A DNA stretch of 64,000 nucleotides. Origin: Thiosocius teredinicola. GTDB lineage: Bacteria; Pseudomonadota; Gammaproteobacteria; Chromatiales; Chromatiaceae. The stretch's first letter is position 1; every line of letters starts with the position of its first letter. Below are positions 19,027-46,951 of the stretch, in pieces. The notes beneath the pieces were generated by a model. That model had not been told where the DNA came from. It did no database searches and saw nothing but the letters and a program-made list of their open reading frames with translations. A program made the position numbers and the translations under genes. The DNA is taken from contig NZ_CP019936.1 in NCBI RefSeq assembly GCF_002009425.1, forward strand, positions 667,001-731,000, written 5' to 3'.

Positions 19027-19263
19027 CTACCCAGTGAACGGTGCGACCCAGATCTGCTGCGCGTGGCGCGCGGGGATGTGGAAACGCTCGTCCTCGCTCG
19101 ATACCACCAGGTTGCCGTCGCGGCAGCGCAGTTCGAGTCGCAGGCGTGCGCCGTCGATCAGCCCGAGCAGCGTCAGCCGGCGGCTGGTCCAGTGGCTTGA
19201 GGCATGCATGATGACAGCGTCGTCTCCCGGTTCGAGGTCGCTGAGTCTGAGTGTCTTGTTCAT
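19027..19263 (-). CDS. FeoA-like SH3-domain protein
   Basis: A 78-aa protein with the FeoA fold: LRLSDLEPGDDAVIMHAS, RRLTLLGLIDGARLRLELRC, and a final beta-strand VVSSEDERFHIPARHAQQIWV. FeoA domains bind the ferrous transporter FeoB or act in metal regulators, but no feoB is nearby. It is the last gene of a three-gene minus-strand operon; its ATG touches the DUF2325 stop (overlap at 19263). The operon promoter at 21222-21249 carries a Fur-like box, in line with an iron role. Confidence 0.85.
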   Translation of the reverse strand: MNKTLRLSDLEPGDDAVIMHASSHWTSRRLTLLGLIDGARLRLELRCRDGNLVVSSEDERFHIPARHAQQIWVAPFTG

Positions 19264-20792
19264 TATTGGATCGCTACGTTTTCCAGGGCTTTGGCGAATG
19301 TCGAGATACCGGACGAACGCAGGAAGACATGCGGCTTGTCGTTGCGTTTGCAGAAGCGTTTCAAGCGGTAATACGCGTCATGGCTCACGCTATCGGTGGC
19401 GCAGACCACCGCGTCGGCTGATGAAAGCATGGCTTCGAGGCGCTGGCGGCTGTCCTCCACGCCACCGTCGTGGTGTTCGAACTGGCCGTTGCAGCGAGCG
19501 ACCAGTGCGCGGTATTGGTCGATCAGACGATGTCGGCCACCGACACACAGGATGCGCCGGCCGCCCAGATCGGGGCAGTCTTCGCAACTGTCCGACTCAC
19601 AGCGGTCACACGGCGACAGCGATTGCGCCAGTAGCGATTCGAGGGTGCGTCGCTCGGCGTGGGTCTGCCGCAGCTCTTTGTCGAGATCGCTGACCTGGCG
19701 GTGGGTGGATTCGTGGAGGCGACGCCATTCCTCGTTGCGTCGCCGTTCTTGGTCGAGTTCCTGGGTCACGCGGTCGAGTTCGGCCTGAATCTGCTTGCTG
19801 TTGGCGCGCTGCAGCTGATCTTCGACGACGCCGAGCAACTGTTTGAGTTCGGTGAGCTGCAGGCACTGCGCGCGCAGTGAGTCCTGGTCTTCGCACTGTT
19901 GCTTTTCGAGATCGTGTATCCGTTGCTCACGGTCTTCGAGCTGTCGCCGGCTGCGCTTATGCAGCGCGTCGAAATCGCGTTGCAGATTGCTCAACGCCGC
20001 CTCGGTACGGGTCAGTTTCTTCAGGTCGGCGCGTTGCCCGGCGCCGACCTGGTGCGACAGCATGTGCACCTCTTCGAAGATCCGCGCGCGCAGCGCCTCG
20101 TCGCAGTTGGGGTGGGTGAGACCGGCCCAGACGCCGCCGGGCACATCGCCGCGCCCCAGCGAGTCCTCCCACAACGCTGTCAGCTCGTTTGCTGATTTCG
20201 CCCGCGCGAAACGTTTGACTTGCGATGCGAACTTTTTGTCGAGCGCCTTGTGGGCCGCGAGCGACAACACGTTCTTGTCGTCGGCGGCAGAGACGAAGCT
20301 CACGTGCACTTCGTAGTCGCTGATCGGTCCTTCGTGCCAGGCGCCGGCGCGCCGCGCCAGCTTGCGCAACTCCGCGCTGTCGAGGCAGGTGCCGATGACC
20401 GGGCAATGCAGTTTGTGCGACAGCTCCCAGAGTTTGCGGCGCGTCTTCTTGGTGCTGCCGGCGGCGACAGCCGCGTCACCGATGACGTCGGCCCCGCGTC
20501 GCAACGGAAAGGTAGGCATGTCGCCGACCGACGATGCGAGCGCGCCGTCGAGCAGGTTTGCCACCTGTTCACTGCGTTGCCGCAGTTCATCGTCAGGGAG
20601 CGCAATCAGGCGTTGTGCTGCGTCGCTGGCCAGTTCGGCGAGTGGCTCGCCGCTGTCGACATCGCAGATCGCTATGCGCGCCGGTTCGGCGTGCAGTTCG
20701 AGCAGATAGCGCACCGGATCGTTGGCTTCGGAATGTGTGGCCGGCCCGCCGGCACAGCAGTTTCCGGTAAGTTCGTTACTTGCACCGCACAT
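19263..20792 (-). CDS. DUF2325 domain protein with coiled coil and cysteine clusters
   Basis: A 509-aa cytoplasmic protein in three parts: a Cys-rich start (MCGASNELTGNCC) with a helical domain, a long coiled coil at about 250-385 (RTEAALSNLQRDFDALHKRS...ELDRVTQELDQERRRNEEWRRLHE), and a C-terminal DUF2325 domain preceded by a cysteine cluster (SPCDRCESDSCEDCPDLGG), with RILCVGGRHRLIDQYRALV, DADAVVCATDSVSHDAYYRLKRFCK-like sequence and FLRSSGISTFAKAL. The cysteines could hold Fe-S or Zn. ATG 20792 is two bases after the upstream gene's stop; the frame extends upstream but overlaps that gene. Function unknown; genetic context points to iron. Confidence 0.82.
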   Translation of the reverse strand: MCGASNELTGNCCAGGPATHSEANDPVRYLLELHAEPARIAICDVDSGEPLAELASDAAQRLIALPDDELRQRSEQVANLLDGALASSVGDMPTFPLRRGADVIGDAAVAAGSTKKTRRKLWELSHKLHCPVIGTCLDSAELRKLARRAGAWHEGPISDYEVHVSFVSAADDKNVLSLAAHKALDKKFASQVKRFARAKSANELTALWEDSLGRGDVPGGVWAGLTHPNCDEALRARIFEEVHMLSHQVGAGQRADLKKLTRTEAALSNLQRDFDALHKRSRRQLEDREQRIHDLEKQQCEDQDSLRAQCLQLTELKQLLGVVEDQLQRANSKQIQAELDRVTQELDQERRRNEEWRRLHESTHRQVSDLDKELRQTHAERRTLESLLAQSLSPCDRCESDSCEDCPDLGGRRILCVGGRHRLIDQYRALVARCNGQFEHHDGGVEDSRQRLEAMLSSADAVVCATDSVSHDAYYRLKRFCKRNDKPHVFLRSSGISTFAKALENVAIQ

Positions 20793-20794
20793 GC

Positions 20795-21061
20795 TCAAGC
20801 CTCCAGCGTGCCGTTGGCTTGGCGGGCCAGCCAGCGCCAATGCGTCTTGAGTCGCAGATAGCTGCAAAGTTCGGTTGCGCCACCTTCGAATGCCGGGTGG
20901 GCGCACAAGGTTTCGATATGACGCACCACGGAGCCTGCGATCGCCGGCGAACGGGTCTGCAGATAGTGTCGAATCAGGTGGGCGAGGCGTTCCTCGATTG
21001 CGTCGGGCGGCAATTGGTCCAGGCGCTGAACCCGGTCGGAAAGAACTGCAAACGTAGCCAT
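20795..21061 (-). CDS. Conserved-looking 88-aa hypothetical protein, first gene of FeoA-like operon
   Basis: An 88-aa soluble protein that I do not recognise. It is probably helical (PPDAIEERLAHLIRHYLQT, GSVVRHIETLCAH) and ends in a basic, Trp-rich stretch (SYLRLKTHWRWLARQ); two cysteines and several histidines could bind metal. It is separated from the DUF2325 gene by two bases, so it is almost certainly co-transcribed. The promoter with a Fur-like operator lies 160-190 bases upstream. Confidence 0.7.
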   Translation of the reverse strand: MATFAVLSDRVQRLDQLPPDAIEERLAHLIRHYLQTRSPAIAGSVVRHIETLCAHPAFEGGATELCSYLRLKTHWRWLARQANGTLEA

Positions 21062-21221: not shown

Positions 21222-21249
21222 AGCCTAGCGTGCCGTGCGAAATTGTCAA
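21222..21249 (-). promoter_or_regulatory. Sigma70-type promoter of the 88aa-DUF2325-FeoA operon
   Basis: On the minus strand a consensus -35 TTGACA (plus 21244-21249) and a -10 TAGGCT (plus 21222-21227) are 16 bases apart. The Fur-like box at 21248-21266 overlaps the -35 from upstream. The leader would be about 150 bases long. Confidence 0.55.
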
Positions 21250-21266
21250 TAAGAATCATTCGCATT
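21248..21266. promoter_or_regulatory. Fur-box-like operator
   Basis: A 19-base dyad with half-sites AATAAGAAT and ATTCGCATT around a central C, i.e. AAT-NN-GAAT-N-ATTC-NN-ATT. It matches 10 of 19 positions of the classical GATAATGATAATCATTATC box. Thirteen bases (minus-strand AATGCGAATGATT) recur exactly in the bfd/bfr intergenic box at 42910. It overlaps the -35 of the FeoA-like operon promoter, a position suited to repression. Confidence 0.6.
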
Positions 21267-21316
21267 AAAGCCGACGGTTTTGCTGGGGTTTGGGGCGCGC
21301 GCGAGCGCTGGGGGGA

Positions 21317-25097: not shown

Positions 25098-25150
25098 GTG
25101 ACGGCGTTCGAGCACCGTTGCGTTGATTGATATCGATTGAGGTTTCGAAG

Positions 25151-32615: not shown

Positions 32616-33164
32616 TCAGCGCAGGTCTTTGTTCCACAACACCTCGCTGTTGCCATCCAGGCGCGCCAGTACCCTGGCCATGACGAACAACAGGTCGGAC
32701 AGACGGTTGAGATAGTGCAGGCTGGCTGCGTTGAGCGGTGTGTGTTGATGCAGCGATAACAGGCAACGCTCGGCACGACGACAGACGGTGCGGCAGACAT
32801 GGCACGCTGCGGCCGGCGGATTGCCGCCCGGCAGGATGAAATCGCGCAGCGCCGGCAGATCGGCATTCAGCCGGTCGAGTGCGGTTTCCAATGCCGCGAC
32901 ATGTTGCGCATCGATCGCTTGACTGCCTGGAACCGCGAGTTCTCCGCCGATATCGAACAAGCGGTGTTGGACCCGCTCGAGCAGCGCGTCGATATCGTCG
33001 GGTAGCGACTGTGCGCGCATCACGCCCACCGCCGCATTGAGTTCATCGACCGTGCCGATGGCCTCGATGCGCGCATCGGTCTTGGCTATACGGGTGCCGT
33101 CGGCGAGGCCGGTTGTGCCATCGTCACCGGTGCGTGTGTAGATCCGCGTCAGGCGGTCGCCCAT
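32616..33164 (-). CDS. pduO: Cob(I)alamin adenosyltransferase, PduO/MMAB type
   Basis: A 182-aa trimeric-type ATP:cob(I)alamin adenosyltransferase that converts reduced cobalamin to adenosylcobalamin. Motifs: the ATP-binding N-terminus TRIYTRTGDDGTTGLADGTRIAKTD, IGTVDELNAAVGV, LFDIGGELAVPG, LPGGNPPAAACHVCRTVCRRAER, and LHYLNRLSDLLFVMAR. GAGG is seven bases before ATG 33164; an ATG two codons earlier overlaps the btuB stop but is too close to that site. Next to the receptor gene under a cobalamin riboswitch, so it probably adenosylates imported cobinamide or cobalamin. Confidence 0.93.
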   Translation of the reverse strand: MGDRLTRIYTRTGDDGTTGLADGTRIAKTDARIEAIGTVDELNAAVGVMRAQSLPDDIDALLERVQHRLFDIGGELAVPGSQAIDAQHVAALETALDRLNADLPALRDFILPGGNPPAAACHVCRTVCRRAERCLLSLHQHTPLNAASLHYLNRLSDLLFVMARVLARLDGNSEVLWNKDLR

Positions 33165-33166
33165 GA

Positions 33167-35077
33167 TCATCCCTCGAACTGGTAGCTGACACCGAACCAG
33201 AAGTTCCGCTCCGGTGCCGGGTTGTAGCCGTCACCGGCGAAAGCGCTGGCTCCCGTCTCGCTGTAGCGCTCGTTGAACAGGTTATTGACCTTTGCCGAAA
33301 AGCGCCAGTCGCCGAAGGTCCGGTGGACGACCAGGTGCGTGACCGTGTATTCCTCAAGCGGTTCGGCTGTGTTGGTGAAGTCCGACCCGAGGAACTGGTC
33401 GTCGACATATTCAACATCGAGTCGCGCCAGCCAGTCGGCGGTAGGTCGATACTCGATAAAGGCGTTGGCCTTGTTCTTGGGCACCAATGGCACCTCTAAA
33501 CCCTTGTGGGCGCCGCTGGTGATCTCGCTGTCCAGGTACTCATAGCCGCCGCCGACGGTGACGAGCCGGTTGATTGCCACATCACCCGAAACAACGAAGC
33601 CGTAGCGCCGGCTGCGCGGCAGATTGACATTGGTAAAGGTGACCGCGTCGAAACTGATTTCGTCTTTCAGGCGCAACTTGTACGCGCGCAGCGACAGGTT
33701 GAAATCGGCACTGTTGTAAGCCACGCCGGTCTCGAGCGAGACGCCGCGCTGGTTCTTGAGGCCCACCGGCTGACCGAAGGGAACATTGGTGTGTTCGTCG
33801 ACTTTGGCGAAACGGTAGTTCTGATCGGCGCGCAGGAAGGCGCGCCATTGTGAGGTCGGGCGGTAGGTGAGCCCGATCGAGCCGACAGTCACCGAGTCGT
33901 CCAATTCCACGGCAACGCCGCCGTTGTCGATGTCGTTCTCGACCCGGGCGTGGCGCGCCCCGGTCGTCAGGGTGATGGTCTGCGAAACCGGCGTGCTGAC
34001 CTGGCCGTACCATGAAGCGATCTGCTGGTCGTTGCCCTGTGGGCCGAATGCGGTCAGCAGGTCGTACTCGCTGTCCAGGTAGTCGACGCCGAGTGTGATC
34101 AACGTGTCGTCGAACCGACCGATCACGCGTGGGGTGAGTTCGAACACGTCGCGGTCCTGGGTCGACTCGGTGCCGGGAAAGCCGCGAAAGCTCTGCACGA
34201 AGTCGCGGTGGTCGTCACGCCGGGCAAGTTCCGCTTCCAGTCGCCAGTGCTCGCTGAACTGCTGCTGCGTTCCCAGTCGCAGCACCTTGCTGTCGGTGTC
34301 CAGGTAGTCGTCGGGAAAAATCGCCTGGCGACGGTCGGCCTCGAGTTCGGACTCGAGCAGGGCGCCGGGTGTCTCGACATAGTCGTTCAACTGTTGGGCT
34401 TCGACATAGCTGTAGCCGGCGTGGTGCGCTACTTCCAACCGCGCATCGATACGTTCGACGCGGCTGGCATTGTGGTCGCGGTAGTTGTCGCTGTCGCGGC
34501 GCAGTACCTGGGCGCTCAGTCCGACCCGGTCGCTGAGCGGCTGATTGAAGCCGGTATCGATCTCCCAGGCGTCATAGCTGCCGGCCCCGACCGTCACGTG
34601 ACCACTGCGTGATCCAGGTCGCTTGGTGATGATATTAATCAGGCCGCCGACCGCCTGGTTGCCGTACAGCACGCCGGCGCTGCCCTCGATGACCTCGATC
34701 CGCTGCACATTGTTGAGCGGGATGCTGTTGAGATACAGGGTGGCGCCATCGGTCGCCGGGTTGATCTTGCGCCCGTTGACCAGCACGGCGACGTTGGACT
34801 GGGCGGTGCTGCCGAAACCGCGCATGTCGATCTTGGCGCTGCCACCGTCGCCGATCGAGTCGGCGACATGAATGCCGGGGATGCGGTGCAGCACCTCGGC
34901 AACATTGCGTGCGCCGCTCTCCTCGATCTGTTGGTCATCGATAATCGTGGTCGCGGCCGGAATATCCAGCCCGGTCTCGGCGGTGCGCCCACCGCTGATC
35001 ACGATGGTTGGCAGGGTGGTCTCGGCAGTGGCCTGCGAGCTCAACATACAGGCAGTGAAAATAGTGCGGTACAGCAT
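33167..35077 (-). CDS. btuB: TonB-dependent receptor, BtuB-like (vitamin B12)
   Basis: A 636-aa outer-membrane receptor: signal peptide MLYRTIFTACMLSSQATA, a TonB box-like TLPTIVISGG, plug domain (AATTIIDDQQIEESGARNVAEVLHRIPG; NVQRIEVIEGSAGVLYGNQAVGGLINIITKRP), and a 22-strand barrel ending in ...FWFGVSYQFEG with terminal aromatic. The cobalamin riboswitch in its leader makes B12 or a corrinoid the likely ligand. GGGAG lies four bases before ATG 35077. Its stop is followed closely by pduO. Confidence 0.9.
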   Translation of the reverse strand: MLYRTIFTACMLSSQATAETTLPTIVISGGRTAETGLDIPAATTIIDDQQIEESGARNVAEVLHRIPGIHVADSIGDGGSAKIDMRGFGSTAQSNVAVLVNGRKINPATDGATLYLNSIPLNNVQRIEVIEGSAGVLYGNQAVGGLINIITKRPGSRSGHVTVGAGSYDAWEIDTGFNQPLSDRVGLSAQVLRRDSDNYRDHNASRVERIDARLEVAHHAGYSYVEAQQLNDYVETPGALLESELEADRRQAIFPDDYLDTDSKVLRLGTQQQFSEHWRLEAELARRDDHRDFVQSFRGFPGTESTQDRDVFELTPRVIGRFDDTLITLGVDYLDSEYDLLTAFGPQGNDQQIASWYGQVSTPVSQTITLTTGARHARVENDIDNGGVAVELDDSVTVGSIGLTYRPTSQWRAFLRADQNYRFAKVDEHTNVPFGQPVGLKNQRGVSLETGVAYNSADFNLSLRAYKLRLKDEISFDAVTFTNVNLPRSRRYGFVVSGDVAINRLVTVGGGYEYLDSEITSGAHKGLEVPLVPKNKANAFIEYRPTADWLARLDVEYVDDQFLGSDFTNTAEPLEEYTVTHLVVHRTFGDWRFSAKVNNLFNERYSETGASAFAGDGYNPAPERNFWFGVSYQFEG

Positions 35078-35217
35078 GGTTCTCCCGGGGCAGCGCCCAC
35101 CGCGCTGCAGATTTTGGGCGGCTGGGAGATCAGAGGCAGGATTGTCCGCTGGACCGGCGACGGATATCGGAGCGACTGCCATATAGCCGCCCGCCGCGGT
35201 TTCATGGTTTAGCGCTT

Positions 35218-35412
35218 GGGGCCGGTATCCGGACTGACGGGTTGGCCTATGGCCGATCGCTGCGCCTTCCCACGTCTGTGACGCAGTGGCTGAGAAGCAG
35301 TCTTCGTTACCCGATCACCGTTGCGGGGGCAGTGCCGGCATTGCTGCTGAGCAGCTCACCGGCTTCCCGTTTAACCCTGATCGGCGGAAGTTCGACGTCC
35401 AGGGCACCTCAG
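35218..35412 (-). promoter_or_regulatory. Cobalamin riboswitch upstream of btuB-pduO
   Basis: Minus-strand RNA of about 195 nt shows the conserved blocks in order: GAGGTGCCC with GGGTTAAACGGGAAGCCGGTG, then the core CCGGCACTGCCCCCGCAACGG followed by TGATCGGG, a middle hairpin region, CACTGCG...GTGGGAAGG, and the closing block AGTCCGGATACCGGCC, the classical B12-box form. It ends about 140 bases before the btuB ATG, leaving room for an expression platform. Adenosylcobalamin binding would be expected to lower expression of receptor and adenosyltransferase. Confidence 0.93.
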
Positions 35413-35484
35413 GCGAGTGCCGGACTGTAAGGCGAGGCAGGAGGGGGGTCAAGCCGCGTTCTGTCCATGCCGCGGCGGTGGTGT

Positions 35485-38857: not shown

Positions 38858-39943
38858 TCAGAACACCGTCAGGTGGTTGTCCCACTGTGACTTGGCGAAG
38901 TGCCGGTTTTCGGGGGTGTCGCCGTCGCCGGCATGCCGCAGGTTGCCCAGTCCGTCGCTGAACCAAAATCGTCGTGCGTCCGCCGCCACGCCGCATACAT
39001 CGGCCTGCTTGTCGGCGGCAATGAAATCTCCGTTGCGGTGCCAATGCGTGATCAATCCGCCACGCGGCGAGGTCACGGCGAACGTCTGTCCGTCGTTGGC
39101 GAATGCAACGCTGCCGCAGTAGTTGCGCATCCGGTTCTGGATATCGACAGGCGCGGTTAACCACGATATCGCGCTACGGCCATCGAACAGGCCGACCAAC
39201 GGTGGCCGATCCTGTTTGCTGCCTTCGTATTGCAGCGCGAGGGCGATGCGGTTGTCGGCCGCGACATCGAGGTGCCGGATACTCAGTTGATGCCAGGTCT
39301 TGGGTGTCGGGTATTCATCCAGCTTGCGGCCGTCCAGTCGATCGACCAGCGTCAACGATGCGCGCATATCGCCGAGGTTGAGCTTGGCGCGTGGCATATC
39401 GGGATGTGTACGGATACCACCGTTGGCGATTGCCAGCGTGGTGCCGTCCGGCATGAGTACCAATTCATGCGGACCGATGCCGTGACTGTCGATTTCGCCG
39501 ACTCGCCGATAGTCATCATCGGCTGCGTAGATGCCGATCTTACCGTTCCCGCTGTCGTAGGCGTTCTCGGTAGCGTAGAGCAGGCCGCCGTTCGGGCTGT
39601 ACACGCCGTGACCGTAGAAGTGGCGCCCCTCAACAGCTCGCAGGCGATGCAGCACGCGTTGCTGTTCAAGGTCGATCACGACCATGAAGTCACCGGGACG
39701 GCGCGCGAATATCACTGCGTGTGTTGCGCTGGGTGCAACGGCAATGCCGTGGCCACGCGCCGGTAGAACGACATCCATCAGGATATCGCCGGCGCTGTTG
39801 AACAGCGTCGCCAGGTGACGGCCGCCGGAACCGTTGCGGCAGCTCAAAAAGCGTTGTTCGCCTGCCGCCGCGATGCTGCGCGTCGGCCCGAGCAACGATA
39901 AGGCTGCCGCGACCTTTAAGAAACTACGTCGATCAATCGCCAT
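38858..39943 (-). CDS. DUF1513 beta-propeller-like protein, Tat-exported
   Basis: A 361-aa protein with a twin-arginine signal (DRRSFLKVAAALSLLG) and DUF1513 blocks: GIAVAPSATHAVIFARRPGDF, GRHFYGHGVYSPNGGLLYATEN, GEIDSHGIGPHELVLMPDGTTLAIANGGIRTHPD, and NYCGSVAFANDGQTFAVTSPRGG. It is a presumed periplasmic seven-bladed propeller. Tat export suggests folding or cofactor loading before export. It overlaps the end of the imelysin gene by 11 bases, so it is the last gene of the di-haem oxidoreductase-imelysin-DUF1513 operon. That operon layout recurs in Pseudomonas and is linked to iron. Confidence 0.88.
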   Translation of the reverse strand: MAIDRRSFLKVAAALSLLGPTRSIAAAGEQRFLSCRNGSGGRHLATLFNSAGDILMDVVLPARGHGIAVAPSATHAVIFARRPGDFMVVIDLEQQRVLHRLRAVEGRHFYGHGVYSPNGGLLYATENAYDSGNGKIGIYAADDDYRRVGEIDSHGIGPHELVLMPDGTTLAIANGGIRTHPDMPRAKLNLGDMRASLTLVDRLDGRKLDEYPTPKTWHQLSIRHLDVAADNRIALALQYEGSKQDRPPLVGLFDGRSAISWLTAPVDIQNRMRNYCGSVAFANDGQTFAVTSPRGGLITHWHRNGDFIAADKQADVCGVAADARRFWFSDGLGNLRHAGDGDTPENRHFAKSQWDNHLTVF

Positions 39944-40991
39944 CGAGACTGTTGAACCCCAGCGGTAGCCCCAACGCCTGAGACAGCTCGCCGCCGATCA
40001 CATCGTTGAGTGTCGCCAGTTGTGTTTTGAGTTCGACCAGTTTGCCTCTCGCGTCTGCGTCGATTACCGCTTCCGGTATTGGTATCTGCAGCGCGTCGAG
40101 CGTAGCCAGTGACGAATCGAACAGGCCGGCAATACGTTGATTGAGCTGCTCGTTGCCGACGCGCGGTGCAAAGCCGACACGGTACAGCGCGTACGTGGCC
40201 TGCAGATTGGCGCGCAGCGCCGCGTTGCTCAACCCGCTGCGCCATGCCTCGGCGCGCTTGGGCAGGGCCCGCTTTATCTCCTCACGCAAGGCACGGCCGA
40301 GTTTCTGATCGACCATGCGTTCGAGTTGGGTATGCAGATTGTTGAGCAGCTTGGCGCTGAGTTCATCGTCGCTGTCGTAGTAGTCGTTGCCGTCGATGGC
40401 GGTGGCGAACATGTCGCGGTGTGCGTACGACCCTTCGGTCCATTCCGCGAGCGTTTCGGCCGACATGCGTTCGAGGTTGGCAGTAATCGCGCCGATGACC
40501 CGGCAACGCCATTCATCATCGGCGTTCTTGGTGTCACCGTCGAACAGCAGTCGCTCCAACGCACTGAATCCCTGCACGGCGACACTGCCACCGGCGAAGG
40601 TATCGGGGTCGAGGCTGGTCGCATCGGGTTTGGACAACAACTTGCGCAGGTGTTTGCCGACCGAGCCGCGCTTGTCGGGCCAGAGCTGATAACGATAGTC
40701 GCGCGACAGGGTCTGGATCGGACCGAAGCGCAGATGCTCGATTCCCTGCCACGCGAGGTAGGCCGGCCTGTATGCGGCGCGAAGCTGATTCAGGCCGGTC
40801 TCACCTTGGGCACACGCCGGTGCGGCGGCATTCAACTGCTGTGTGGTCTGCGCGAGTTTTTGGTAGGCCGGTATCACATGCTCGTCGGCGACCGCGAGGT
40901 TGTAGTTGACCGGTTCCGCCCATGCCGCTGTGACCATTACTGTGCCGAGCAACAGCGCGATGTTTCGGCAGAAAGTTTTCAGGGAAGTCAT
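39933..40991 (-). CDS. Imelysin-family periplasmic protein (second copy)
   Basis: A 352-aa protein with signal peptide (about 1-25, ...VMVTAAWA) and an imelysin-like helical fold. Visible features: EHVIPAYQKLAQTTQQL, GLNQLRAAYRPAYLAWQGIEHLRFGP, and FAGGSVAVQGFSALERLLFD (the GxxALE position of the imelysin GxHxxE motif: V-Q-G-F-S-A-L-E keeps Glu but has Phe-Ser where His is expected). Imelysins (peptidase M75, EfeO C-domain relatives) bind iron. It starts inside the stop of the di-haem gene (ATGA, 40988-40991). Degenerate metal motif compared with the copy at 44154. Confidence 0.85.
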   Translation of the reverse strand: MTSLKTFCRNIALLLGTVMVTAAWAEPVNYNLAVADEHVIPAYQKLAQTTQQLNAAAPACAQGETGLNQLRAAYRPAYLAWQGIEHLRFGPIQTLSRDYRYQLWPDKRGSVGKHLRKLLSKPDATSLDPDTFAGGSVAVQGFSALERLLFDGDTKNADDEWRCRVIGAITANLERMSAETLAEWTEGSYAHRDMFATAIDGNDYYDSDDELSAKLLNNLHTQLERMVDQKLGRALREEIKRALPKRAEAWRSGLSNAALRANLQATYALYRVGFAPRVGNEQLNQRIAGLFDSSLATLDALQIPIPEAVIDADARGKLVELKTQLATLNDVIGGELSQALGLPLGFNSLDGD

Positions 40992-42451
40992 AGGCTTTCG
41001 ACGAAGCGCAGCATCGCGGCGCGGTCCTCGGCAGACATGGCGACCACCCGGTCGCGTGCCGCCTGCGCCTCGCCTCCATGCCACAGGATAGCCTCGAGCA
41101 GATTGCGCGCACGTCCGTCATGCAGGTAGTAGCTGTGGCCGTTGACCGTCGGTGTCAGGCCGATTCCCCACAGTGGTGGGGTGCGCCACTCGCGGCCGTC
41201 GGCGGCGCCTTCGGGGCGATTGTCCGCAAGGCCTTCACCCATATCGTGTAACAGCAGATCGGTGTAAGGCCAGATGAGCTGACGTTTCTGTTCGGGTGCG
41301 ACATCGTCGGAACGCGTGACGTACTTGGGTGTGTGGCAGCCGATGCAACCGGATTCGTAGAACAGCTTCTTGCCGGCGAGCACCTGTGGGTCGTCGTAAT
41401 CGCGGCGCGCGGGTACGGCAAGGTTCTTGGCGTAGAACACGACCAGGTCGCTGACTTTCTGATCGGCTTCGACGTTGTCGTATTCCGGGCTGTTGCCGTC
41501 GGGTGCTGCGATGCAGTCTTGTTGCTGTGCCGTGCATTCACCGCTACCGGCGGGGTGCAGCGGCGTCGATATGCCGACGTCGCCGGCGAACGCGCCCAGG
41601 GACTGTTCCATAACGCTCGATTCACCGGCTTTGTGGCCGAAACGGCCGAGCATGACTTTGTCGTGTTCCAGACTCCATACGAGGTTTGGACGCCCCGATA
41701 TGCCATCGTTGTTGGAATCGTCCGGGTCGACCTGCGACAGGATGTCCTGTTCGTCGATCGCCTCGAGCAAACCCAGGCCGATCATCTGCGGTGCAATACG
41801 TGGCGACAACTGGGCCTGTGCGTGCAGCGGGCCGTAACCGAGGTCGGCGGCGGTATAGGTTGGCGCGCGCAGGCTCGCTGTCTCACCGTCGGCGAGCTTG
41901 ACCGGTAACTCTTGGTAGTCGATCTGCAGGCGGTATTCGGCATTGTGGCCGGCGATGGCGAAGTCCTGCAACTGCGTGCCGTACATCGGGTCTGGGATGT
42001 TCTTGACCCGATGCGTCTCGATCAATTGGCGATCGGCGTCGGATTGCGGCGGGATACTCACGCGCAGAAACATCGATACCGCATTGTCGTTGCTGTTCTC
42101 GGGCGGATGGCCGCGACCGTCTTTCAGGTGACAGCGTTGACATGAGCGGGCGTTGTACAGGGGGCCGAGGCCATCGGCCGCCTTGGTCGACGCCGGGGCA
42201 GTCACCCACAGTCGTTTGAAAAAGCCGTTGCCGACCTTGAAGTCGATCTCGCGCTCGAAACTCATGTTCGCCGAAGCATGCGAGAACGCATCCTTGTTGA
42301 GTTTCTTGGTGTGGGTGGCGGCACCTGCGGGGTAGCGCTCGTATTCTTCCGCCTTGGTGAAATCGGTCGTGGGCTGGGTTATCGGTTCAGCGGCATATGC
42401 CACCGTCAGCGCGCTACACGCCGCTGCCAGGATCAGTGGGGAAAGGTTCAT
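40988..42451 (-). CDS. Di-haem oxidoreductase (DHOR, DUF1111 family)
   Basis: A 487-aa periplasmic cytochrome: signal peptide MNLSPLILAAACSALTVAYA, two CxxCH haem c sites, CQRCH (104-108) and CIGCH (369-373), and family blocks GLGPLYNARSCQRCHLKDGRG, DPDDSNNDGISGRPN, GRFGHKAGESSVMEQSLGAFAGDVGI, TPPLWGIGLTPTVNGHSYYLHDGRARN. These proteins resemble MauG/CcpA di-haem peroxidases and often sit beside imelysin genes, where a ferrous-oxidation role has been proposed. First gene of a coupled unit with imelysin and DUF1513. Often mislabelled thiol oxidoreductase. Confidence 0.9.
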   Translation of the reverse strand: MNLSPLILAAACSALTVAYAAEPITQPTTDFTKAEEYERYPAGAATHTKKLNKDAFSHASANMSFEREIDFKVGNGFFKRLWVTAPASTKAADGLGPLYNARSCQRCHLKDGRGHPPENSNDNAVSMFLRVSIPPQSDADRQLIETHRVKNIPDPMYGTQLQDFAIAGHNAEYRLQIDYQELPVKLADGETASLRAPTYTAADLGYGPLHAQAQLSPRIAPQMIGLGLLEAIDEQDILSQVDPDDSNNDGISGRPNLVWSLEHDKVMLGRFGHKAGESSVMEQSLGAFAGDVGISTPLHPAGSGECTAQQQDCIAAPDGNSPEYDNVEADQKVSDLVVFYAKNLAVPARRDYDDPQVLAGKKLFYESGCIGCHTPKYVTRSDDVAPEQKRQLIWPYTDLLLHDMGEGLADNRPEGAADGREWRTPPLWGIGLTPTVNGHSYYLHDGRARNLLEAILWHGGEAQAARDRVVAMSAEDRAAMLRFVESL

Positions 42452-42545
42452 CGGTTTTGGGAGATACGGCTAATGGGTTGGCTAATATCAAACCTGCGGG
42501 ATTTAACCGGCGGTTACGTCTTGTGGCGGGGGTGTGATGCCACGT

Positions 42546-42566
42546 GCCGCAACAGGCTGTTGCGGC
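42546..42566. terminator. Stem-loop between bfd and the di-haem gene
   Basis: Nine-base perfect stem GCCGCAACA / TGTTGCGGC with a 3-base loop (GGC) lying 90-110 bases downstream of the bfd stop on the minus strand. No T-tract, so it may attenuate rather than end transcription into the di-haem operon. Confidence 0.4.
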
Positions 42567-42658
42567 GACCTCGGCGACTGTTGTGGGTGGCTGCAGCGAC
42601 AGCGTGCAACCAATTCAGCAGGCGCGTCTGGAAGGTGTTGAGTTGGCGTGCCATCGGA

Positions 42659-42871
42659 TCAGGCGCACGCGCACGCGGCGGTAGCGAAGGATGCTTGCTG
42701 CCACTGCTCGGTCACTGCGGTTTGCAGCACGCGCTTGGCGCAATCGTGACAACGACCGCAGCATGACGCGACCTTGAGCTCATCGTGCAGTTCATCCATT
42801 GAACACACCCCGCGTTCTGCGGCTTGGCGGATCTGTCCGTCGGTTACTTTGTTGCAGACACACACATACAT
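42659..42871 (-). CDS. bfd: Bacterioferritin-associated ferredoxin
   Basis: A 70-aa [2Fe-2S] protein that donates electrons to bacterioferritin for release of stored iron. Cluster cysteines are in MYVCVCNKVTD (CxC) and VASCCGRCHDC (CxxC spaced as in Bfd). The tail has extra cysteines (ATAACACA). It is divergent from the bfr pair. Its promoter carries a Fur-like box, matching the known induction of bfd under iron limitation. Confidence 0.95.
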   Translation of the reverse strand: MYVCVCNKVTDGQIRQAAERGVCSMDELHDELKVASCCGRCHDCAKRVLQTAVTEQWQQASFATAACACA

Positions 42872-42898
42872 GGCCTAACCCTCTTCGTCGATAGCTTA

Positions 42899-42927
42899 AT
42901 AGTAGTGGGAATGCGAATGATTTGCAA
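42899..42927 (-). promoter_or_regulatory. bfd promoter
   Basis: Minus-strand -35 TTGCAA (plus 42922-42927) and -10 TACTAT (plus 42899-42904), 17 bases apart. The Fur-like box 42910-42928 fills the spacer and the -35, a repressor position. The 5' leader would be about 20-30 bases. Confidence 0.55.
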
Positions 42928-42928
42928 C
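42910..42928. promoter_or_regulatory. Fur-box-like operator between bfd and bfr
   Basis: The dyad AATGCGAAT-G-ATTTGCAAC matches its own reverse complement at 6 of 9 half-site positions, and its first 13 bases AATGCGAATGATT are identical to the (reverse-complement) box at 21248-21266. It overlaps promoter elements of both divergent genes. Confidence 0.6.
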
Positions 42929-42951
42929 AACAATGTCGTTGCGACTATTAT
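42922..42951 (+). promoter_or_regulatory. bfr promoter
   Basis: The palindromic TTGCAA (42922-42927) can also serve as plus-strand -35, with -10 TATTAT (42946-42951) at 18 bases. The bfr leader would be about 130 bases. The Fur-like box lies at the -35, so iron control of bfr is possible but its direction cannot be read from sequence. Confidence 0.4.
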
Positions 42952-43089
42952 TACGAAATACGTTGTAAAACAAAGAGTTATCTTGCCTGCGGGCGTGCTT
43001 GCGCCTTACTATGAGCTGTCAGAGCGGCAAGCCAGTCCCAGTCGGATAGCCAGCCTTCCTTGTAACAGTCGTTAAACAGGAGGCGCTGG

Positions 43090-43560
43090 ATGCACGGCGA
43101 CCCGCACATCCTCCAGGGGCTGAATCTCTGCCTTAGAGATCAGCTCACTGCCATCAACCAACTATTCCTGCACGCCCGCATGGCCAAAAACTGGGGTCTT
43201 GAGGGGCTCAATGCATACGCCTATGGCCAATCCATCAGGGCGATGAAACAGGCAGACGATCTGATTGAACGTGTGCTGTTTCTCGAGGGTCTGCCCAATC
43301 TGCAGGATCTCGGCAAGCTGCTGATCGGCGAGAACGTGCCGGAGATGCTGCACGGCGATCTGAGCATGTTGCTGCCGATGCGTACCCAACTGCAAACCAC
43401 GATCGCCGACTGCGAATCGGCGCAGGATTACGTCAGCCGCGACCTGCTCGAGAAAATTCTCGGGGAAACCGAAGAGCATATCGACTGGCTGGAGACCCAG
43501 CACAGCCTGATTGCGAACGTCAGCCTCGAAAACTACCTGCAAGCCTTGATGGAGGACTAA
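43090..43560 (+). CDS. bfr: Bacterioferritin subunit, haem-binding type without ferroxidase centre
   Basis: A 156-aa four-helix ferritin-like subunit with [47 protein letters not shown] and EHIDWLETQ. By E. coli Bfr numbering, Met52 (haem ligand) is kept in AMKQAD, but the di-iron ligands are lost: Glu18 to Gln, Glu51 to Ala, His54 to Gln, Glu94 to Leu, Glu127 to Thr; only His130 remains. It should bind haem in mixed 24-mers and rely on the partner for iron oxidation. AGGAGG lies six bases before ATG 43090. The downstream subunit begins 2 bases after the stop. Confidence 0.93.
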
Positions 43561-43562
43561 GC

Positions 43563-44051
43563 ATGAAAGGCAACAGCAAGGTCATTGCACACCTGCAGAA
43601 ATTATTGTCCGGCGAACTGGCGGCGCGCGACCAGTACTTCGCGCACTCGCGTATGTACCAGGACTGGGGATTGCAGCGCCTGTATGAACGTATCAACCAC
43701 GAGATGGAAGAAGAGACCCAGCATGCGGATGCGCTGATTCAGCGCATGCTGTTTCTCGAGGTCCAACCGGATCTGTCGAACCAGGACGCGTTGCGCATTG
43801 GCGACACGGTTCCGCAGATGTTGAAGAACGATCTGGCGGTCGAGTACGAAGTGACCGCGGCATTGAAAGAGGCGATCAGCGTGTGCGAGCAGGAGCGGGA
43901 CTATGAAACCCGCCAGATCCTGTTGCAGTTACTCGAAGATACCGAGATGGATCATGCCTACTGGTTGGAGAAACAGCTCGGCCTGATCGACAAGGTCGGC
44001 CTGCAAAACTATCTGCAGTCACAGATGGGCGAGGGCGGTGCGTCGGCCTGA
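43563..44051 (+). CDS. bfr: Bacterioferritin subunit, ferroxidase type without haem Met
   Basis: A 162-aa bacterioferritin with the full ferroxidase set by E. coli numbering: Glu18 ([12 protein letters not shown]), Glu51 and His54 (EEETQHAD), Glu94 (DLAVEYEV), Glu127 and His130 (TEMDHAYWL). The haem ligand Met52 is replaced by Thr (EETQH). It complements the upstream subunit; such pairs form heteropolymers in Magnetospirillum and Neisseria. Two bases separate the genes. The end faces the imelysin gene, whose terminator at 44099-44124 may also end this transcript only weakly. Confidence 0.94.
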
Positions 44052-44098
44052 CGTCGATGTAGTCAAGACGGCCTGTTGCCGCTCAAGGTACGGCGCAT

Positions 44099-44124
44099 AA
44101 AAAAGCCGCCCCGGTTGGGGCGGC
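44099..44124 (-). terminator. Rho-independent terminator of imelysin gene
   Basis: On the minus strand, an 8-bp GC stem (GCCGCCCC/GGGGCGGC) with loop AACC is followed by six T. It lies 30 bases after the imelysin stop at 44154 and ends the hemP-porin-imelysin unit before the bfr genes. Confidence 0.85.
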
Positions 44125-44153
44125 GACGGGCGGGGTCAATCGCCGGTTGCGTA

Positions 44154-45410
44154 TTACTCGAACACCTTGTCCGGTGCATCGAGGCTGTCGGATCCCTCGA
44201 AAGCGATCGATTCGAGGTCCATCACCGCGACGGCCTTCTCGATCGCCTTGGTCTGATCGAGTAGCGCATCGATCGCCGCGGCGACCTTGCGGTTGCCTGC
44301 GTCATTGTTCTCACCGATCAGCTGGTCGTAGGCCTCTCCGCCTTTGGCGCTGTCGACCAATGCCTGCATTTTGTCGAGCGTGGCATTGAGCTTGTCGCGC
44401 AGCTGCTTGTCGGCAGCAGGATCGCGGGCGGCGACCAGATCGGCAACGCTGGGTCCGGTCATCTCGGAACCATCGACCCGTTTGTAGCTGCCGGTGTAGA
44501 CGTTCTTGATACCGAGCGCGTCGTTGTAGTGCGACCAGTGGGTGTTGTCGCTGAAGCAGTCGTGTTCTTCTTCGGGGTCGTGCAGCATCAGGCCGAGCTT
44601 CATGCGCTCGCCGGCGAGTTCGCCGTACGACAGGCTGCCCATGCCGGTGAAGATGGTCGATAGCCCGACTTTCGGATCGCCGCTGGTCAGCGTTGTACGC
44701 GCTTCACCGCCGGGTGCCCATTGCTCGGTCATCCACGCCAGTTCCTGCACCAGCAGATCGGTAGCGGCCTTCAAGTAGGCAGCGCGCCGCTCGCAATTGC
44801 CCCACGAGCAATTGCCCGGGTCGAAGTCGCTGGCAGGGCGGGCGCCGGCACCCGGGCCGGTGCCGTTGAGATCCTGGCCCCACAGCAGAAACTCGATGGC
44901 GTGGTAACCGGTGGCGACATTGGCCTCGATCTCGTCGACTTCATGCAGTGTTTCGGCGAGCAACGAGGGCGTGATGTTGCCGGCATCGATCTCGCGGCCG
45001 GACAAGACCAGTTTCGGATGGGCGATCACGTTGGCGGTGTAGTAGGGATTTTCATCGGACTCGCCGCCGTAACTCGATGCGACATAATCAATCAGTCCTT
45101 CATCGAGTGGCCAGGCATTAACCTTGCCTTCCCAGTCGTCGACGATGGCGTTGCCGAAGCGATAGGCCTCGGTCTGCTGATAAGGATGGCGTGCGGTTAC
45201 CCAGGCCGCTTTGGCGGCCGACAGGTTCGCCTCGGTCGGGGTCGCGATTAGTGCATCGACGCGTTGCTGCAGGGTTTGTGCGGTCTGCAGCGAATCGCCG
45301 TACATGGCATGCGCCAGGTCAGCATAGTGCGTGAGCACGGCCTGCGGGGTGGTTGCCTGAGCGCTCACGCCGAACGTGATACAGGCAATGAAAGTTACTG
45401 CGCGTTTCAT
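44154..45410 (-). CDS. Imelysin-family periplasmic iron-binding protein (first copy)
   Basis: A 418-aa protein with signal peptide (MKRAVTFIACITFGVSAQA) and imelysin (M75) fold. The hallmark GYHAIEFLLWGQDLNGTGPG contains the GxHxxE metal motif. Others: WVTARHPYQQTEAYRFGN, VNAWPLDEGLIDYV, ITPSLLAETLHEVDEIEANVATGYHA, LTSGDPKVGLSTIFTGMGSLSYGELAGERM. Relatives include insulin-cleaving IcmP, IrpA and EfeO C-domains; a peptidase role is doubtful and iron binding is the current view. It is 20 bases downstream of the porin gene, so co-transcribed. Ends at the terminator 44099-44124. Confidence 0.92.
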   Translation of the reverse strand: MKRAVTFIACITFGVSAQATTPQAVLTHYADLAHAMYGDSLQTAQTLQQRVDALIATPTEANLSAAKAAWVTARHPYQQTEAYRFGNAIVDDWEGKVNAWPLDEGLIDYVASSYGGESDENPYYTANVIAHPKLVLSGREIDAGNITPSLLAETLHEVDEIEANVATGYHAIEFLLWGQDLNGTGPGAGARPASDFDPGNCSWGNCERRAAYLKAATDLLVQELAWMTEQWAPGGEARTTLTSGDPKVGLSTIFTGMGSLSYGELAGERMKLGLMLHDPEEEHDCFSDNTHWSHYNDALGIKNVYTGSYKRVDGSEMTGPSVADLVAARDPAADKQLRDKLNATLDKMQALVDSAKGGEAYDQLIGENNDAGNRKVAAAIDALLDQTKAIEKAVAVMDLESIAFEGSDSLDAPDKVFE

Positions 45411-45430
45411 TTGTACGTTCCTCGGTTTGC

Positions 45431-46579
45431 TCAGAATTCGACCGCGAGCAGTGCGGTAATCGTGTCGGCATCAGCGCCGGTATAGTCTTCGTCGTTGCGG
45501 TATTCCAGAGCGACCGCCGTGCCGTCGAAGATTTCTACCGAAAGGGTGCCGCCGACGCGTTCTTCGGTGAAGCCGTCGTTGATGTTGTCCATTTCGTCGC
45601 TACCGCCATAGGCCAGCGCAAAGGTCGCTGGTTTGCCGATGATCTCAAAGTCGATGGCGGCTTCGACGTTGAACGCCGAGGGTTCGTCGTCGCCGGCATC
45701 GGCGAAGCCATCGATGGCCGCGAGGTACTCGCCGGTCAGACGGATGGCGCCGAACTGGAACTGTGCGCTGGCGACCCAGGCGGCGACGTCATCGCCGTCG
45801 GCGATGAAGCCTTCGTCGACCATGAAGTCGGATTCGCCCAGGTCGTTGATGTAACCAACGTGACCGATAACGCCGAAGTTGTCGCTGACCGACTCGAAGT
45901 TGAGCGCGGCGCCGAAGTTGTCGATGCGTGAATCGCGGTCGCCCTGGAAGGTGAATACCGATGCCGTCACCATGCCGAAGTTCCAGCCTGCTTCGATCGC
46001 GGTATCGCCCGTCTCGCCCAGCTCCAGGGTCAGCGGGTCGGCGACCATGTCGGTGTTGTAGGTGCCGAACGGTACGGTGAACTGACCGGCATTGACGAAC
46101 CAGCTGCTGTCCGGGTCGGCAATCGTGACCATCGCAGTATCGACGCTGAAGTCGCTGCCGTCGCCGCTGCCGTCATCGTTGTCGGTATCTTCTTCGTACA
46201 GCAGCACGAGTTCTGCACTGACCCAGTCGTTGACCTGGGCGGCGATGCCCAACTCGACCGTGGGCGTGATCAGATCGCTTTCGTCTTTGTCGCCGTCGGG
46301 CGAGGTGTGGCTTGCCTCGATCTCGATCAGCCCGCTGACTTCGATGTTGTCGACCCAACTGCCACTGCTCGCGGCGCTATTCCCCCCGGTCGTTTTCTTC
46401 AGCTCGGCGATCTCGCGGTCTTTCTCGAGGATCACCTCGTCTTGCGTTTCGACGCGTTTCTCGAGGTAGTTCAGGCGTTTTTCCATCGCCTCGAGGCGCT
46501 CTTCCAGGGTTGCTGCGCCGGCGGCTCCGCCCCCGGCCAGTGCCGCAGATATCGTTGCGGCAAGCAGTGCTTTTTTCAT
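45431..46579 (-). CDS. LbtU-family (siderophore) porin
   Basis: A 382-aa outer-membrane protein: signal peptide (MKKALLAATISAALAGGGAAGA), an N-terminal coiled coil (TLEERLEAMEKRLNYLEKRVETQDEVILEKDREIAELKK), and a beta-barrel rich in acidic loops (TSPDGDKDESD, EEDTDNDDGSGDGSD), ending LLAVEF with terminal Phe. LbtU from Legionella takes up legiobactin without TonB. A carboxyl-rich barrel could attract iron complexes, which is an inference. Preceded by hemP by 55 bases and followed by imelysin by 20. Confidence 0.85.
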   Translation of the reverse strand: MKKALLAATISAALAGGGAAGAATLEERLEAMEKRLNYLEKRVETQDEVILEKDREIAELKKTTGGNSAASSGSWVDNIEVSGLIEIEASHTSPDGDKDESDLITPTVELGIAAQVNDWVSAELVLLYEEDTDNDDGSGDGSDFSVDTAMVTIADPDSSWFVNAGQFTVPFGTYNTDMVADPLTLELGETGDTAIEAGWNFGMVTASVFTFQGDRDSRIDNFGAALNFESVSDNFGVIGHVGYINDLGESDFMVDEGFIADGDDVAAWVASAQFQFGAIRLTGEYLAAIDGFADAGDDEPSAFNVEAAIDFEIIGKPATFALAYGGSDEMDNINDGFTEERVGGTLSVEIFDGTAVALEYRNDEDYTGADADTITALLAVEF

Positions 46580-46634
46580 GTTGAGTGGACTCCCGTACAT
46601 AAATTTTTTTAGGTTCCAGCCGATCTTCGAGCGG

Positions 46635-46811
46635 CTACTTGGTCAAAATGAGTTTCCCCTGGCGTGTAATCTGTAAGCGATACGTTTCGCCACGGTGCTC
46701 GATCTCGATACGGTTTCCGCCACGGAACAGCTCGGAGGTACACAATCGAGGGGGATCCTGCGTTTTGCCTTCATCGCATTTGCACGGTTCCTGCCTGCTC
46801 TTATCGTTCAT
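46635..46811 (-). CDS. hemP: Hemin uptake protein HemP
   Basis: A 58-aa gene found by reading the minus strand upstream of the porin. The C-terminal half is the HemP signature: SELFRGGNRIEIEHRGETYR, then LQITRQGKLILTK. The N-terminal half is polar with three cysteines (EPCKCDEG, RLCTS). HemP (HmuP-like) proteins are small regulators or helpers of haem/iron uptake, normally under Fur control. It is the first gene of the hemP-porin-imelysin unit; a Fur-like site lies 28-46 bases upstream. No strong ribosome site is visible before ATG 46811, but the length and reading frame match the family. Confidence 0.88.
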   Translation of the reverse strand: MNDKSRQEPCKCDEGKTQDPPRLCTSELFRGGNRIEIEHRGETYRLQITRQGKLILTK

Positions 46812-46838
46812 GACTCGGCGTGCTGTAGATCTTGTGTT

Positions 46839-46857
46839 GGAAATCGTTATCGTAATA
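46839..46857. promoter_or_regulatory. Fur-box-like site upstream of hemP
   Basis: Minus-strand TATTAC-GATAAC-GATTTC-C is three head-to-tail GATAAT-like hexamers and matches the classical 19-base Fur box at 12 positions. It lies 28 bases before the hemP ATG. It does not share the AATGCGAATGATT core of the other two sites. Confidence 0.5.
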
Positions 46858-46951
46858 CGAACAATTTGCGTTTACAAACTAATTTCGAATGGAGCGAACC
46901 CGGTTCCCGCGGGCGATGTGCCTGCCCCAACGGGAGATATGGTGGGCACAA

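Follow-up and report, generated by a model that had tools for sequence, protein, structure and literature searches.

An iron-linked imelysin cluster with an acidic LbtU-family porin in Thiosocius teredinicola, and its possible role in TonB-independent iron uptake and storage

The outer membrane is usually taken to admit scarce metals in one of two ways, by TonB-powered receptors or by leakage through general porins. A nine-gene island in the genome of Thiosocius teredinicola raises the question of how iron might be acquired and stored by a system with neither a TonB receptor nor an inner-membrane permease of its own. The island lies at positions 38858-46857 of the DNA studied here, a stretch of 64,000 nucleotides (contig NZ_CP019936.1, positions 667,001 to 731,000 of the forward strand; hereafter the window), and encodes HemP, an LbtU-family outer-membrane porin, two imelysins, a di-haem c oxidoreductase (DHOR), a DUF1513 protein, two bacterioferritin subunits (Bfr) and the bacterioferritin-associated ferredoxin Bfd. 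We find that it is a real, conserved variant of a known imelysin cluster, and we lean, by a little, towards the view that it forms a Fur-controlled, TonB-independent module for iron uptake and storage. The acidic LbtU group to which the porin belongs, with the metal partners of that group, is what looks new.

The list of open reading frames (ORFs), Pfam and NCBIfam gave the same gene identities and strands as an earlier sequence-only reading of this DNA. Coordinates and family matches agree on the order: hemP, porin and imelysin 1 in one run, the bfr pair on the opposite strand, and bfd followed by DHOR, imelysin 2 and DUF1513. The overlaps and motifs which that reading described are likewise present. 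The ATGA overlap is formed by the DHOR stop and the imelysin 2 start, which we refined to 40991, and imelysin 2 and DUF1513 share 11 bases (39933-39943). The periplasmic imelysin 1 carries GxHxxE as GYHAIE at residue 168, in imelysin 2 GFSALE replaces it at residue 140, and DHOR has two CxxCH motifs (residues 104 and 369). None of the genome's eight TonB-receptor matches falls inside the island, and no island gene matched a permease family in Pfam or NCBIfam. The most acidic product among the 35 non-overlapping window ORFs of at least 250 residues is the porin, with a net charge of -60 (-15.4 per 100 residues), followed by imelysin 1 at -7.4.

Is this composition found elsewhere? A class survey of 143 genomes, about one per family, detected imelysin in 17 and, above cut-off, DHOR in 19, DUF1513 in nine and LbtU in 36. 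LbtU, both imelysins, DHOR and DUF1513 occurred together in the window's genome (G000), G141 and G015, the co-occurrence that the sequence-only reading had proposed to look for, and the island composition is more than chance. G015, from another family, has the window's order (LbtU, imelysin 1, bfr2 and bfr1 on the opposite strand, bfd, DHOR, imelysin 2, DUF1513), with 38-70% protein identity and no hemP detected. G141, of the window's family, is rearranged, bfr1-bfr2 facing a run of bfd, hemP, LbtU, imelysin, a MauG/MbnH-like protein, Hfq, DHOR, imelysin 2 and DUF1513; the Hfq gene lies at 9209-9490 of locus L078, between the MauG/MbnH-like gene and DHOR. We also read the 80 named loci that best matched imelysin 1 among at least 589 relatives; going by their titles, most are Alphaproteobacteria. 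All four core genes (imelysin 1, DHOR, imelysin 2, DUF1513) were present in 70 of the 71 loci of at least 15 kb, Bfr genes were present in 24 of the 80, and in Mesorhizobium and its kin a Bfr-like gene stands between imelysin 1 and DHOR.

A second class survey covered 369 genomes, of which 38 have imelysin; 37 of these loci were read, the window included and G343, with a degraded imelysin, left out. LbtU lies within about 3 kb of imelysin in seven of the 38, with one gene between them in G240, and this proximity is seen in five families (f1, f16, f45, f126, f158). Imelysin was found in 10 of the 28 genomes with an acidic LbtU vs 28 of the 341 others. The proposal that porin and hemP belong to one system gains support from four genomes (window, G141, G048, G240) in which hemP directly precedes LbtU. 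By its family match HemP may act in haemin uptake, as HemP/HmuP proteins do. An ORF upstream of imelysin in L096, examined as a candidate LbtU, is not one, and a weak LbtU-like fragment adjoining the imelysin of G109 was left out of the acidic loci.

The island might still be a clustered Fur regulon, in which iron modules stand side by side and share no pathway. Gene order does vary (window, G141, G074), parts occur alone, and 30 of the 37 imelysin loci have no acidic LbtU. Against this stand the recurrence of the window's order in another family, the five families with LbtU near imelysin, and the grouping of imelysin-linked porins in trees, where they form one clade among 37 rows (96/88) and need two changes of label in the larger tree of 54. 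We judge a mere regulon unlikely.

The core itself follows the order of PA4370-PA4373, with GxHxxE in the first imelysin and GxxxxE in the second; here bfr and bfd lie between imelysin 1 and DHOR. In profile searches imelysin 1 matched PDB 7xrx over nearly its full length, and imelysin 2 matched 3pf0. GxHxxE is absent from 82 of the 83 imelysin 2 reading frames of relatives, some of them partial, and the motif that the sequence-only reading called degraded is therefore a family trait. DUF1513, which starts with a twin-arginine sequence (RRSFLK), gave an AlphaFold model of good confidence (12 sequences; pLDDT 87, pTM 0.86) made up wholly of beta structure, its short strands repeating in the manner of a propeller; the Tat-exported propeller named by that reading is thus the predicted fold. 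We aligned the window protein with 78 of 80 other frames, of about 280-620 residues, shorter and longer ones being dropped. Histidines H65, H112, H159, H224 and H357 are invariant in all 79 rows, and H180 is kept in 75. Their spread over the predicted blades is reminiscent of nitrous oxide reductase, in which histidines ligate a metal centre. A PDB profile search with DUF1513 returned no clear relative.

The literature ties this core to iron. PMC3143127 describes PA4370-PA4373 as a Fur-regulated operon that encodes two imelysins and a di-haem protein, along with a family of second imelysins with the histidine lost, which bears out the link to iron in Pseudomonas stated in the sequence-only reading. 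In Leptospira, a group of imelysin, haem protein and imelysin responds to iron limitation and peroxide (PMC7567364), and the same trio is listed in order in Vibrio fischeri (PMC5466423). In the literature searched, no paper was found on imelysin with DUF1513, on imelysin with LbtU or on DUF1513 alone. The imelysin core is already known, and a link to the porin was not found in print by these searches.

Could DHOR, imelysin 2 and DUF1513 instead defend the periplasm against peroxide and metal damage by controlling redox-active iron, without import? Pfam calls DHOR a putative peroxidase, and bacterioferritin is protective. MauG/MbnH-like di-haem proteins occur in the imelysin loci of eight of the 37 class genomes (L237, L239, L244, L245, L247, L251, L078, L205), and in Leptospira H2O2 induces the genes for imelysin and the haem protein (PMC7567364). 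However, import systems (FbpAB, ZnuAB-like) lie in or beside the cluster, and Fur-like boxes suggest induction under iron scarcity; we regard a defence function of this kind as quite improbable. As to the MauG/MbnH-like proteins, which are found in L096 and L100 as well, their best NCBIfam match is MbnH, below cut-off (162 vs 363 bits), hence the guarded name. A partner gene downstream of the MbnH-like protein, inspected by eye only, was not supported.

The porin matches NF033652 well above its cut-off of 90 bits, over model positions 2-327 of 327, and a signal-like sequence suggests that translation may in truth begin near 46579. In a tree of 54 LbtU-like proteins, with many deeper branches open and several long rows, the 25 control rows form one neutral clade (100/98), whose net charges per 100 residues run from -3.4 to +3.2. 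All other rows, the window porin among them, are acidic, from -5.8 down to -17.9 (this last a partial frame). Not counted as acidic were L211 (+3.3), a near-neutral partial frame in L209 and an ORF on the opposite strand in L187. Relative to the median of their neighbours, 20 acidic LbtUs stood at -8.2 and 20 neutral ones at -0.6, the comparison using 20 of 29 acidic loci and 20 neutral loci.

Where the charge lies can be said only roughly. From four sequences, AlphaFold modelled the porin (mean pLDDT 63, pTM 0.57) with 16 strands, a helix that looks like a signal sequence and another at 32-70, possibly a coiled coil. The acidic loops noted earlier reappear as 36 D/E vs 3 K/R in the loops and turns predicted with modest confidence, and predicted strands hold 29 D/E vs 4 K/R. 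Acidic residues make up 20 of 93 positions on the less hydrophobic strand face vs 9 of 94 on the other, faces having been assigned by hydrophobicity, which favours this result; the model is too weak to say where the acidic strand residues point. A PDB profile search with the porin gave no clear relative.

Which systems accompany these porins? Alignment A5 of the acidic porins matches 78 of the 369 class genomes, from which 29 loci in 28 genomes were hand-sorted as acidic; partial or weak matches in G009, G109 and G226 and low-scoring second copies were left out, and 20 of about 50 other matching genomes served as the neutral control. A metal system lies within about 4 kb of 12 of the 29 acidic loci and of none of the 20 neutral ones, by counts made by hand from locus listings. 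Seven have imelysin or DHOR (G000, G141, G015, G240, G185, G269, G363), two have FbpAB after LbtU (G048, G290), two have DUF4198-CbiM-CbiQ (G128, G242), and one has an ABC-3 permease with its ATPase and a divergent ZnuA (G036). Fisher's test gave p = 0.0006 by locus and 0.006 by family (9/21 vs 0/13), values that are indicative only, because some Fbp, Cbi and Znu seeds came from acidic loci and the genomes are related. The neutral set came closest with a bfr1 match at a distance of 5 kb (L220), a match to bfd on the edge of its locus (L222) and, 6.8 kb away, a FeoB match of 25% (L232); in the acidic set, L208 has ZnuA/ZnuB matches roughly 6 kb from the porin and was not counted. Pfam scans of neighbours, for which the first 25 of 52, 42 and 62 families were listed and 39/40 and 51/53 neighbour ORFs included, showed among the listed families of 77 neutral neighbours no named metal importer, one TerC and one unspecified ABC ATPase. 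Among the 17 acidic loci without a nearby metal system, one has a ferritin (L183) and another a cupredoxin (L202) close by.

Some details of these loci are recorded here. In two genera of one family (L186, 8729-12824; L199, 4973-7937) the acidic LbtU is divergent from DUF4198, a 222-residue protein, CbiM and CbiQ. The B12 riboswitch expected at Cbi-linked porin loci was not found, and cobalt and nickel therefore cannot be told apart. A scan with a Zur consensus yielded nothing convincing at the Znu-linked locus. G048 carries, between LbtU and FbpABC, the gene of a 154-residue, apparently exported protein with no Pfam match (L182, 3459-3923), after which comes a second Fur-like box (15/19, at 3962).

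The family name itself points to another function, in which the porin, like LbtU itself, would serve as receptor for a ferric siderophore of the carboxylate type, such as rhizoferrin, and imelysin would strip the iron from it in the periplasm. NF033652 is named for LbtU, the window protein reaches 250 bits, and the acidic, imelysin-linked protein of G015 takes fifth place in the class search with 339. In Legionella, LbtU takes up ferri-rhizoferrin and is encoded by a Fur-controlled gene; a reference title in the same paper calls it TonB-independent (PMC11705809). The window protein, however, falls outside the neutral clade, which holds the top three NF033652 matches and may or may not include Legionella LbtU itself. 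Strong acidity would be ill-suited to a polycarboxylate ligand, and relatives adjoin Znu and Cbi genes, which are not siderophore systems. We hold a siderophore receptor to be somewhat unlikely.

Is the island under Fur? As promoters we took the stretch ahead of hemP and the 218 bases that separate bfd from bfr1. A plain Fur consensus, scored over 19 positions against 300 shuffles, was too weak to decide in the window and was therefore replaced by a weight matrix built on 12 sites of other genomes, with which 63982 positions of the window were scanned. Rank three went to the bfd/bfr1 site, with 3 of 1000 shuffles doing as well, and rank four to the hemP site (13 of 1000). Directly upstream of DHOR no Fur-like site was found (rank 621; 801 of 1000), so that bfd, DHOR, imelysin 2 and DUF1513 probably form one unit read from the bfd promoter, with bfd as its first gene. 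By the plain consensus, boxes of 15-16/19, equalled by none of 300 shuffles, stand before hemP, LbtU or imelysin in L096, G048, G290, L097 and G010. The G141 site corresponding to bfd/bfr1 scored 14/19 (7/300). G015 reached 12/19 (13/300); the Cbi-linked G128 and the Znu-linked G036 reached 10/19 (299/300) and 9/19 (295/300).

The best Fur-like sites of the window, ranks 1 and 2, lie at 21245-21269, upstream of a DUF2325-like gene (547-residue ORF) and an 88-residue ORF. The former has 37% identity over 401 residues to a gene between LbtU and imelysin in G240, on whose product PF10087 was found; the label rests on that match. In G346 a homologue occurs near bfd, in G131 one lies upstream of a run of porin, imelysin and DHOR, and L241 has a weak one.

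The paired bacterioferritin, which the sequence-only reading called split, is of the known two-subunit kind, as its sequences indicate. At the positions that we take to be the haem and ferroxidase ligands, the alignment shows that Bfr1 keeps Met52 and has Q18, A51, Q54 and L94 at ferroxidase positions, while Bfr2 has Glu/His there, with one inserted residue before the last, and lacks the haem Met52. Bfr1 is closer to chain type 9iig_M than to 9iig_A of the PDB, and Bfr2 the reverse; Bfr1 would thus be the haem-ligand subunit and Bfr2 the ferroxidase subunit. Entries with two Bfr chain types exist in the PDB, and the pair is not peculiar; of the sequence-only interpretation, the iron theme and the membership of porin and hemP in one system are supported. 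Bfr genes occur in the imelysin loci of eight of the 37 genomes, the window and seven others.

For the inner membrane, relatives offer candidates. FbpA-FbpB is found in the imelysin locus of six of the 37 genomes (G074, G109, G210, G226, G244, G325), in G210 inside the gene run, and the loci of G109 and G226 also have a multicopper oxidase. FbpA- and FbpB-like genes follow DUF1513 in the named genome L098, and ZnuA/ZnuB-like genes (25-27% identity, no Pfam confirmation) come just before LbtU-imelysin-DHOR in G269 and G363. The window genome has no FTR1/EfeU match (PF03239) in a search that was positive in 4 of 14 control genomes. It does have two FeoB and, far from the island, one FbpA-FbpB pair (42-45% identity), around which no matching ATPase gene was found in the 12 kb read. 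We favour the unlinked FbpAB pair, or FeoB, as the inner step, because FbpAB is linked in relatives and present in this genome, which has no FTR1.

From gene content, conserved linkage, Fur-like sites, acidity and domain identity we infer the following route, including passage through the porin, the order of hand-over, a redox role for DHOR and the use of unlinked FbpAB. Iron would enter the periplasm through the strongly acidic LbtU-type barrel, either as a cation or in a small labile complex, and be captured there by imelysin 1 (GxHxxE). Its redox state would be set, or the iron handed on, by DHOR together with imelysin 2 and the His-rich DUF1513 propeller. An FbpABC-kind ABC importer or FeoB, encoded elsewhere in the genome, would carry it across the inner membrane; the two-subunit bacterioferritin would store it and Bfd release it.

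Several points weigh against this route, besides the many imelysin loci without an acidic LbtU. The plain Fur consensus reached only 12/19 in the window, with shuffles as good in 23/300 (hemP), 32/300 (bfd) and 56/300 (bfr1) cases, and G185, which has LbtU-imelysin, scored only 11/19 (281/300). A thermal shift test is reported to have shown no binding of haem or of ferric ion by either imelysin tested (PMC3143127), and Legionella LbtU is a ferri-siderophore receptor (PMC11705809). No metal system is near 17 of the 29 acidic LbtU loci, and the count of acidic vs neutral loci is partly circular for the reason given above. Finally, IcmP is reported as a partner of ModA, the molybdate protein, in a review of the type VI secretion system (PMC8602904), and the imelysin system might accordingly serve another metal, for example molybdate via ModA and IcmP. 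Fur-like sites, Bfr/Bfd and the FbpAB linkage speak against such a role, ModA and molybdate genes not having been sought with a seed of their own, and we consider it very remote.

A bolder proposal, which we regard as possible rather than probable, is that acidic LbtU-type barrels form a family of outer-membrane porins devoted to metal ions and independent of TonB, the neighbouring system determining which metal they carry (iron with imelysin/DHOR or FbpABC, zinc with ZnuABC, cobalt or nickel with CbiMQ), and that in the iron branch EfeU-type chemistry is replaced by a new centre for handling iron in the periplasm, made up of the di-haem enzyme and the propeller with its five invariant histidines. 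If true, a porin group travelling with importers of iron, zinc and cobalt/nickel would amount to a third outer-membrane route, and the label of siderophore porin on many annotated proteins would be in doubt. The long-known, mechanistically unexplained imelysin cluster would gain an outer-membrane door and, from its relatives, inner-membrane candidates, making the pathway testable stepwise.

Features of the island and a possible distant member, in window coordinates
Feature	Position	Strand	Basis
Fur-like operator region upstream of hemP	46833..46875	.	weight matrix
hemP, 58 aa	46635..46811	-	PF10636, 63.5 bits
LbtU-family outer-membrane porin, acidic group	45431..46600	-	NF033652, 249.7 bits; ends in Phe
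imelysin 1, ICMP type, GxHxxE	44154..45410	-	PF09375, 305.9 bits
bfr2, bacterioferritin subunit	43563..44051	+	TIGR00754, above cut-off
bfr1, bacterioferritin subunit	43090..43560	+	TIGR00754, above cut-off
Fur-like operator between bfd and bfr1, divergent promoter	42907..42931	.	weight matrix
bfd, [2Fe-2S] bacterioferritin-associated ferredoxin	42659..42871	-	PF04324 (Fer2_BFD), 42.3 bits
DHOR, di-haem c oxidoreductase	40988..42451	-	PF06537, 325.1 bits
imelysin 2, IPPA/PA4372 type, GxxxxE	39933..40991	-	PF09375, 162.7 bits
DUF1513, Tat-type start, predicted beta-propeller	38858..39943	-	PF07433, 348.3 bits
DUF2325-like protein, possible distant member	19263..20906	-	similarity to G240 gene; best Fur-like site of window above

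Outside the island, the nearest TonB-receptor match (33167-35182) lies in a minus-strand stretch, 32616-35426, together with a cobalamin riboswitch and a cobalamin adenosyltransferase (32616-33170); the receptor is probably of the B12 type, since the riboswitch precedes it. That riboswitch (35203-35426) and a tRNA, both outside the island, are the only Rfam matches of the window at gathering thresholds. A PilY1-type protein (PF05567) is encoded at 25127-29815, and the ORFs upstream of it may be a run of pilus genes.

The known system closest in composition is the PA4370-PA4373 cluster, which shares the GxHxxE imelysin, the di-haem protein and the second imelysin with GxxxxE. The fourth gene here, DUF1513, probably corresponds to PA4373. 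The window differs by the addition of hemP, an acidic LbtU-type porin and Bfr/Bfd, and by its two units split around the bfr pair. EfeUOB also joins an M75 protein with a haem protein under the theme of iron, and the di-haem protein of the Pseudomonas operon is treated as an EfeB homologue in PMC3143127. The window genome, in contrast, lacks an FTR1/EfeU match and has an outer-membrane porin. Pfam found no cupredoxin domain on either imelysin, and the EfeO model NF041757 reached only 26.5 bits vs a cut-off of 270 in the window; membership in EfeUOB was dropped for want of an FTR1 match. The FbpABC-type ferric ABC importer recurs beside the imelysin cluster and adjoins two acidic LbtU loci, whereas the FbpA-FbpB pair of the window genome is unlinked and has no matching ATPase gene in the surrounding 12 kb. 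In two-subunit bacterioferritins (PDB 9iig and 9h1u, with two Bfr chains), of which Neisseria BfrA/BfrB is one, a haem-ligand subunit is paired with a ferroxidase subunit, as in the window, and we saw no difference. Legionella LbtU belongs to the same NCBIfam family and is likewise an outer-membrane barrel without TonB features, whereas the window protein lies in the acidic group outside the neutral clade, a group with metal systems near 12 of its 29 loci.

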